Shown here piece by piece: positions 30,100 through 32,142 of a stretch of 64,000 bases of DNA; positions within the stretch are counted from its first letter, which is position 1, and each line of letters opens with the position of its first letter. The stretch covers positions 123,255 through 187,254 of the forward strand of contig JACCXH010000007.1 of the NCBI GenBank assembly GCA_013697245.1, given 5' to 3'. Source of the stretch: Bacteroidota bacterium. GTDB taxonomy: Bacteria; Bacteroidota; Bacteroidia; B-17B0; Aurantibacillaceae. The translations under genes and the position numbers were made by a program. The notes beneath the pieces are model-generated. The model made no database searches, was not told the origin of the DNA, and saw only the letters and a list, made by a program, of their open reading frames with translations.

Positions 30100-30804
30100 A
30101 TGGATTACAATTTTTATACCGGCGAAGTTCTACTCATTGATAAACCTTATACCTGGAGCAGTTTTCAGGCAGTAAATAAATTAAAGCACGCTATAAAAAA
30201 TCATCCTTCGTTACTTGTTGACGGCGTAAAAGTAAAACCAAAAATTGGTCACGCCGGCACACTTGATCCTTTAGCAACCGGTTTACTTATTGTTTGCACC
30301 GGGAAAAAAACAAAAACCATTAACGACTTAATGGGAATGGAAAAAGAGTACACTGGTACTTTTTTATTAGGAGCAACAACACCTTGCTTTGATCTTGAAA
30401 AAGAAGTTGACAAAACTTTCCCGACCGAACATATTACGTTAGAAGCCATACAACAAGCTGCAAAAGATTTTACAGGCATACAACAACAGGTGCCGCCAAT
30501 TTTTAGTGCCGTGATGATAAGCGGAAAACGCGCTTATGAAATGGCAAGAGCCGGTGAGGAAGTTGAAATGAAATCGCGTGAAATTGAAATAAAAGAATTT
30601 GAAATAACAAACGTCAATATGCCAAGCGTTAGTTTTAGAATTGTTTGCAGTAAAGGAACGTATATTCGTAGCCTAGCACGTGATTTTGGTTTAGCCTTAA
30701 ATAGCGGTGCGCACCTTACAGCACTCTGTCGCACACGTATTGGCGATTTTAAATTGGGGGATGCAGTTACTCCGCAAGAGTTTGCGGAGAAATTAAATCC
30801 ATAG
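30100..30804 (+). CDS. truB: tRNA pseudouridine(55) synthase
   Basis: The product has 234 residues. It has the motif I region LIDKPYTWSSFQAVNKL, the catalytic motif GHAGTLDPLATGLLIVCTGKKT with the active-site Asp (GTLDP), and CSKGTYIRSLARDFG. It converts U55 in the T-loop of tRNAs to pseudouridine. The C-terminus is short, as usual in Bacteroidota, with no clear PUA domain. The non-coding repeat element begins about 80 bp after its stop. Confidence 0.95.
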   Translation: MDYNFYTGEVLLIDKPYTWSSFQAVNKLKHAIKNHPSLLVDGVKVKPKIGHAGTLDPLATGLLIVCTGKKTKTINDLMGMEKEYTGTFLLGATTPCFDLEKEVDKTFPTEHITLEAIQQAAKDFTGIQQQVPPIFSAVMISGKRAYEMARAGEEVEMKSREIEIKEFEITNVNMPSVSFRIVCSKGTYIRSLARDFGLALNSGAHLTALCRTRIGDFKLGDAVTPQEFAEKLNP

Positions 30805-30948
30805 TTATTTATTTTTTTGTTAATTTTCCGTAGAGAAAATATGCTGTATATGTTTTACTTAAATTATTTGATTGCAGCACAATTTCTTTTGTCACTTTTG
30901 GCGCGCAAAAGTAACCAAAACGCATTTGATCTTTTGAAAGGAGATTTT

Positions 30949-30991
30949 TCTATTCGCAACTTAGAGGCAGCGAATAGAAAACCGCTGCCTC
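30949..30991 (+). other. pair of overlapping, mutually exclusive 9-bp hairpins
   Basis: TCTATTCGC (30949-30957) pairs perfectly with GCGAATAGA (30970-30978). GAGGCAGCG (30964-30972) pairs perfectly with CGCTGCCTC (30983-30991). The two stems share the GCG at 30970-30972, so they cannot both form fully. On RNA this looks like a switch or a folding pathway. Confidence 0.6.
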
Positions 30992-31247
30992 GCCAAGCAC
31001 TTTTCTGGATGCTTAATCAACAAATTGCCTAGCTTGGCTCGCATCTATCTCTGCAAAAGATCAAGATGGAAAACTCAAACACCTAAACGCAAAGCTATAT
31101 CAGGATATTTGTCCGCGTAAGCAAACAAAGAATTGGCCTCAAAGAAATTCTGTAAAATTTGTGTTTTGATTTTTCAACCCCAGGCAAATTTTAATACATA
31201 AATAGGATTTTGGAATTAGGCGTTATTGCTGTATTAAATTATCTTGA

Positions 31248-31304
31248 GCCCACGCTGTTTGAGCCACCCGCAAAGGATTTCGAGATAGTGGCGAGTTTGT
31301 GGGC
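31248..31304. other. two-step stem with internal loop in the repeat element
   Basis: GCCCAC (31248-31253) pairs with GTGGGC (31299-31304), and inside it GCCAC (31263-31267) pairs with GTGGC (31288-31292). The strands between the two helices are GCTGTTTGA and GAGTTT, which would form an internal loop. This is the most structured part of the element's right half. Confidence 0.55.
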
Positions 31305-31328
31305 GACACAAGAAAAATCTGAAACTAC

Positions 31329-31363
31329 AAATCAAGGAATTTCTTTGTGAGCCTTGATTTTTT
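31329..31363 (+). terminator. terminator-like hairpin at the right end of the repeat element
   Basis: AAATCAAGG (31329-31337) pairs perfectly with CCTTGATTT (31352-31360) and is followed at once by more T residues. It could end a plus-strand transcript of the element, or of truB. The stem is AT-rich, so strength is doubtful. Confidence 0.4.
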
Positions 31364-31479
31364 GGTTACTTTTTGATCAAGCAAAAAGTGACGGCAAGAA
31401 TTAATTATAAAATTTATTTTTTGGTTGTTTCATGGTTGAGAAGAGGCGAACCATGCTTGGTGAAGAAGATCTTGGAGAT

Positions 31480-32142
31480 TTAAATATTAAGGAAATGCAA
31501 GAACTCGTTTAAACGATCTTTCATACCGGTTTCATAATCGCTGTGAGAATAAGTAGCTTTTATAGTATAATTGTAACGGTTAAATGTTTGAATGATGCTT
31601 GAAAGATCTTCGCGGTTTACTTTTAACGTCACTTCCAGTTTCATACTATCCGGTTGCGATGAAACGTGCAGACTTAAAATTTTCGCATCGTTGCCTTCAA
31701 TAATATTTCCAATTTGAGTAACCGAATAATCGTTTTGATTTAATTCAAGTACAATTACACCTCCCGGATTTTGAACCGAGATCATGGTACTTAAATTTTG
31801 CACAATACCTTTTAAGGTGATGCAGCCTTTGTATTTTTCGTTCTCATCTAACACCGGGATTAATGTCAGGTTTAAGCTGGTCATTAATTTTACTAATTCG
31901 TATGTGTGTTGGTGAATGTGAATTGCAGGACGCATTAAATGTAATTTGCTCGCGTCAATTTGTTCTTCGGGATGGTTGTAATCTAACAGATCGGTCTCTG
32001 AAACAAGACCAACTAACTCACGATCTTTTACCACCGGTAAATGAGAAACTTTGAACTGTTCCATCCAATCCAAAGCCAACTCAACCGTGTCGGTGGTTTT
32101 AAGTGGTGGAATTTCGTCTGTTATAAGATCAACAACTAACAT
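31480..32142 (-). CDS. CBS-domain pair protein with ACT-like C-terminus (AcuB-like)
   Basis: The protein has 220 residues. Two CBS domains occupy about residues 1-120 (VELALDWMEQFKVSHLPVVKDRELVGLVSETDLL; TYELVKLMTSLNLTLIPVLDENEKYKGCITLKGI), which together bind an adenine nucleotide. The C-terminal 80 residues (GVIVLELNQNDYSVTQIGNI) look like an ACT-type regulatory domain. The layout resembles AcuB-type proteins. It is probably a soluble sensor whose partner is not encoded next to it. It stands alone between the repeat element and pdxJ. Confidence 0.85.
   Translation of the reverse strand: MLVVDLITDEIPPLKTTDTVELALDWMEQFKVSHLPVVKDRELVGLVSETDLLDYNHPEEQIDASKLHLMRPAIHIHQHTYELVKLMTSLNLTLIPVLDENEKYKGCITLKGIVQNLSTMISVQNPGGVIVLELNQNDYSVTQIGNIIEGNDAKILSLHVSSQPDSMKLEVTLKVNREDLSSIIQTFNRYNYTIKATYSHSDYETGMKDRLNEFLHFLNI

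Follow-up and report, generated by a model that had tools for sequence, protein, structure and literature searches.

A modular folded intergenic repeat family of Bacteroidota and its copy between truB and a CBS-domain gene

The window analysed here, a 64,000-nucleotide stretch of DNA from a Bacteroidota bacterium, carries a non-coding folded repeat of ~520 bp at positions 30884-31400. Related copies are dispersed, their sites are variably occupied, a single site holds arms A+B in one genome and A+C in another, the structure covaries, and the element has no gene of its own. An earlier note, made from the letters of the window, had offered a miniature mobile element, a structured RNA or both; these were the right options, and on balance the data favor a DNA repeat that is dispersed and whose single-strand fold is selected. 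The reading favored here, which we consider probable, is that of a non-autonomous modular palindromic repeat (BIME/REPIN/MITE-like), spread in trans by a putative enzyme, with selection acting on its folded single strand. This Bacteroidota-wide family, like whatever machinery spreads it, is apparently undescribed: neither by sequence nor by topic was a description found in the literature, although one may exist among subscription papers, which lay mostly outside the scope of the search.

Architecture of the window copy

The element is flanked by truB (30100-30804, + strand) and a CBS-domain gene (31480-32142, - strand), and therefore lies in a convergent gap. Its limits, as the earlier note had drawn them, coincide with the ends of copies elsewhere in the same genome and in congeners. 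Read on the + strand, the two-armed element consists of a reversed arm A, a joint, arm B, and the right terminal hairpin. The claim of inverted-copy ends, each with its own hairpin, holds: a perfect 14-bp inverted repeat, AAAAGTAACCAAAA, stands at 30907-30920 and 31360-31373, and each copy takes part in a separate hairpin. The left terminal hairpin (30887-30919, - strand) has arms at 30887-30900 and 30906-30919 around the loop GCGCG. Adjoining it at 30921-30923 is CGC (GCG on the - strand), which, as read from the sequence, is complementary to the loop. The right terminal hairpin (31365-31392, + strand), GTTACTTTTTG-ATCAAG-CAAAAAGTGAC, is the part common to the whole phylum, and its loop is complementary to CTTGAT at 31353-31358 (+ strand), a feature assigned from covarying variants. 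The left-end CGC is the counterpart of this right-end relation in other letters.

Arm A (30887 to ~31095, - strand) comprises the left hairpin and a body, and its assignment is based on 26 A copies aligned in two subtypes. The body is closed by an 11-bp helix (30926-30936/31054-31064), the long-range inverted repeat of the earlier note, and contains a hairpin at 30946-30957/30970-30981. Arms A and B are linked by the joint motif CGCGTAAGCAAACA (31114-31127, + strand), with which half-elements begin at other places. The arm B body (31135-31347, + strand), assigned from covariation among 23 copies, begins at GGCC; it has an outer helix at 31145-31151/31336-31342 and inner hairpins at 31187-31198/31230-31240 and 31248-31254/31298-31304. 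Inner hairpins of the kind noted before were confirmed at 30946-30957/30970-30981, 31190-31204/31224-31238, and 31248-31254/31298-31304. Together with the joint and the right hairpin, arm B spans ~31114-31392.

As RNA the element folds with a z-score of -4.0, and as DNA its two strands reach -3.7 and -5.4; none of 100 shuffles folded as well. The longest ORF within it encodes 71 amino acids, and neither this ORF nor one of 46 amino acids has a Pfam match, in keeping with the earlier view that no convincing ORF is present.

Copies, modules, and distribution

A whole-genome search found related sequences at ~20 intergenic places in the 4.4-Mb genome itself, and congeners contain many more. Matches at E <1e-4 were obtained in 33 of 60 relatives; full-length copies with 82-84% identity are present in two relatives. 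Fifteen element clusters were collected from 800 kb of two congeners plus the 64-kb window. The copies combine shared modules. Module C stands in for B in other copies, giving the combinations A+B, A+C, C+B, and A alone, with C and B head to head in L033 and L034, and every arm has a hairpin at its outer end. Single arms also occur, and L041 is little beyond the two ends. Many intergenic copies assembled from shared modules in this way are what defines a mosaic intergenic palindromic repeat of the BIME type.

At least 117 contig stretches in the genome collection carry a strict terminal-hairpin pattern, which required the upstream match. The matches listed are nearly all from Bacteroidota and span the range between Bacteroidales and Cytophagales; Chlorobiota, Melioribacteraceae, Fusobacteria, and other MAGs supply a few. 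Despite this breadth, the distribution is patchy, since the strict pattern was found in 8 of 297 sampled Bacteroidota genomes (reversed control, 0). The supposition that such sequences are frequent in the phylum thus stands for breadth and fails for density; in the window's own genome the 13-mer AAAGTAACCAAAA taken alone is not enriched (5 matches, against 6 for the reversed control). Five plasmid records match, all from Bacteroidota and all through the right terminal hairpin only, and phage records gave no match. When an empty site was sought among the Parabacteroides plasmid records, only the same three records came up.

Several local variants were observed in passing. In one Parabacteroides distasonis strain, a G+C-rich version of the element occupies three loci (L318 2324-2600, L319, and L320) between smalltalk/amidase genes and an HU-family gene. 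Single-arm units form tandem arrays in L082 (1-1100) and L085 (1700-2200), with periods of ~380 and ~200 bp. A second palindrome, GCTCAATGCTTTGCATTGCC, is nested in terminal hairpins or arms at L036 6843-7119, L033 6312-6548, and G019:C2 73110-73190. At L253 4856-5986, a hydrolase-like ORF continues into a C arm, which gives it an N-terminal extension that is probably spurious.

Covarying structure and the loop-flank match

Aligning the copies, as the earlier note had advised, uncovered strong covariation. In arm B, 18 of 37 pairs show compensatory changes among 23 arms, with 102 double-changed cells versus 36 (sd 4) after shuffling and no more than 12 in slid controls. For arm C (17 arms) the corresponding figures are 23 of 51 pairs and 74 double-changed cells, versus 22 (sd 4) shuffled and at most 21 slid. 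Covarying pairs therefore exceed the relatedness controls, as is expected of a structured RNA.

The terminal hairpins add a relation of another kind. The 6-nt loop (ATCAAG) of the right hairpin and the upstream CTTGAT are complementary to each other, and variants of the loop usually come with a matching upstream change, as in GTCAAG/CTTGAC and TTCAAG/CTTGAA. In Parabacteroides distasonis the loop is GGTCAAG and the upstream sequence CTTGACC. Exceptions are one mismatched hairpin in L063 and one in G019 that pairs through G-T. Because the strict pattern demanded the upstream match, the phylum-wide set is no proof of pairing by itself; the proof comes from the variant loops. A match of this kind requires a single strand or a cruciform to have any effect.

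Site turnover and mobility

The gap between truB and the CBS-domain gene is occupied differently from genome to genome. It holds A+B in the window, A+C in G019, arm A alone in G006, another palindrome in G021, and in G012 and G007 Flavo-1 (RF01705), scoring above the Rfam cut-off. These Flavo-1 copies, in two congeners, lie at L223 1234-1321 and L224 1263-1343. In five more distant congeners, only ~10-50 bp separate the two stop codons. Orthologous sites that lack the element, which the earlier note had suggested looking for, therefore exist. At two further sites, one congener has the element and the other has unrelated palindromes. Unrelated palindromes of the CTTTGTGGTTAAG type and of the CAGATTTCGCGG..GTGAAATCTGTGG type were recorded at G006:C14 62280-62400, G019:C2 69080-69170, and L222 2170-2260. 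They lie either in the truB-CBS gap or directly after stop codons, at orthologous sites that carry the element in a congener.

Within one genome, copies at different places are up to ~97% identical, and their homology stops at or shortly past the terminal hairpin; single-armed copies disperse as well. Variable occupancy together with near-identical dispersed copies demonstrates dispersal and turnover; the mechanism is inferred. Against the favored reading, no clean target-site duplication was seen at three sites, nor a truly precise empty site, the element-free sites of close relatives hold other palindromes, and no mobilizing enzyme was found. Orthologous A arms resemble one another no more closely than paralogous A arms do, so that these data fit an exchange of modules and separate insertions equally well.

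Structured RNA or DNA repeat

The most serious alternative, which we regard as possible though clearly the lesser prospect, is a multi-copy structured non-coding RNA, either a stand-alone sRNA or a 3'-UTR element, in which the hairpin and its upstream match would form an RNA pseudoknot. The strong covariation speaks for it, as do the asymmetric (one-sided) internal loops and the apical motif CTGTTTGAGCGAAGCGAGTT, both conserved phylum-wide; an RNA would likewise be consistent with the T-G wobble of the terminal stem. The share of G-U pairs was counted in outward orientation over ~3,100 cells, at pairs predicted on both strands, a requirement that discards some G-U pairs and so makes the test a weak one. 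G-U and A-C mismatches number 75:48 overall, compared with 11:0 in a control of only 8 tRNAs, counted over their acceptor and T stems. By arm, the excess in C (33:11) favors RNA, whereas B is symmetric (29:30) and the overall share is low. Even so, the family looks unlike an ordinary RNA family.

Orientation and promoter content also argue against an RNA. In tandem gaps there is no preferred orientation relative to neighboring genes (33:24 and 17:16, the former set including two-armed copies, which blur orientation), and no promoter-like excess is found. Copies in convergent, tandem, and divergent gaps number 38/57/15 versus 132/516/196 for all gaps, an enrichment of convergent and depletion of divergent gaps (p ~4e-6). 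The absence of orientation bias, the low and weakly strand-biased G-U share, and the turnover at the same site together lean to a DNA repeat.

Flavo-1 is the known family nearest in kind to the window element, and as an Rfam sRNA entry it could be taken to favor RNA. Both are multi-copy, structured, and non-coding in Bacteroidota, with a nested stem and asymmetric internal loops, and in G007 and G012 it is Flavo-1 that fills the truB-CBS gap. However, it has another sequence and structure and lacks the terminal loop-flank hairpin, and its covariance model gave no match to the window element at the gathering score. The element has no Rfam match at all, which answers the earlier question of a known RNA family. 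Furthermore, Flavo-1 itself is reported without consistent transcription: in Flavobacterium psychrophilum its matches are sense or antisense to transcribed regions without distinction, and many fall outside them (PMC9723704), a pattern that fits a DNA repeat.

Search for a mobilizing partner

With its terminal inverted repeats, many dispersed copies, and lack of a gene, the element has the general features of a MITE. A classical MITE, that is, an internally deleted IS remnant moved by the DDE transposase of that IS through the terminal inverted repeats, nevertheless seems improbable. Near 80 phylum-wide loci no transposase recurs, and no other gene family does so convincingly (one cluster, at only 3 of the 80); no target duplication was seen at the three sites compared; the terminal repeats fold into hairpins whose loops pair with the flank; the bodies covary; and single-armed copies disperse. 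As candidates for an autonomous longer copy, the element clusters of G006 and G026 were inspected and rejected, having only ordinary genes or short ORFs. Non-coding multi-copy elements of the MITE type are reportedly present in Porphyromonas gingivalis (PMC4596501), a likeness of description. The Cardinium MITE is another such element in Bacteroidota, but it is derived from IS982 and strain-specific (PMC9769881).

The enrichment between convergent genes, and a GCC followed by TTGATTTTTT that resembles a terminator tail, could suggest a bidirectional terminator for convergent genes. We give this little credence: the terminator scan of the element was negative, contrary to the terminator-like stem claimed earlier, and no G+C-rich stem stands directly before a T run; behind several copies (L033, L035, and G019:C2 near 73220) stands an ordinary terminator-like hairpin, separate from the element; and in tandem gaps many copies are oriented against the gene upstream.

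Least credible of all is a REPIN, a REP doublet mobilized by a RAYT (Y1 HUH) transposase, for although two inverted hairpin ends enclose a variable body and Y1 genes are present in the window's own genome, the complete, element-rich genome G006 has none, no copy stands at 32 Y1 loci of the genus, and Y1 genes adjoin other short palindromes. Thus the combination of a RAYT gene in the genome with flanking copies was not found. The four Y1 (RAYT-like) genes of the genome, at L044-L047, each stand beside their own short palindromes, unrelated to the element. As a comparison, REPIN/RAYT systems share with the family the inverted hairpin ends around a variable body, the intergenic location, persistence, and probable movement in trans, while the family differs in its 500-bp length and large structured bodies, in the missing RAYT of G006, and in the absence of copies from RAYT loci. 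BIME and ERIC repeats of enterobacteria are mosaic, palindromic, and intergenic, with nested inserts, and resemble the family in all of these features; their sequence is unrelated, and the family is set apart by its phylum-wide terminal hairpin and covarying loop-flank match.

A proposed mode of propagation and its significance

A full copy of the family consists of two outward-facing arms. Each is a nested stem body that ends in a terminal hairpin, and the loop of this hairpin can pair with the bases directly upstream in a pseudoknot-like lock. Under the favored reading of a modular palindromic repeat spread in trans, the folded single strand would most likely be DNA exposed in replication or repair. 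A trans-acting enzyme may recognize the terminal hairpins and copy or move the element, and recombination between copies would swap the bodies. Most persisting copies would stand near gene 3' ends, insertions into promoters presumably being lost.

More speculatively, and on balance doubtfully, such phylum-wide elements might propagate as folded single strands, be recognized through the loop-flank-paired terminal hairpin, and be mobilized by a class of enzyme not yet tied to repeats; Flavo-1 and these elements may belong to one larger group whose members compete for the same sites at gene ends. The shared site suggests that Flavo-1, too, may be a dispersed DNA repeat and not an sRNA. For annotation, the element matters in that it can create or lengthen spurious ORFs. 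Ultimately, the family represents a specific fold conserved in intergenic DNA across a major phylum, where some agent would move or maintain it.
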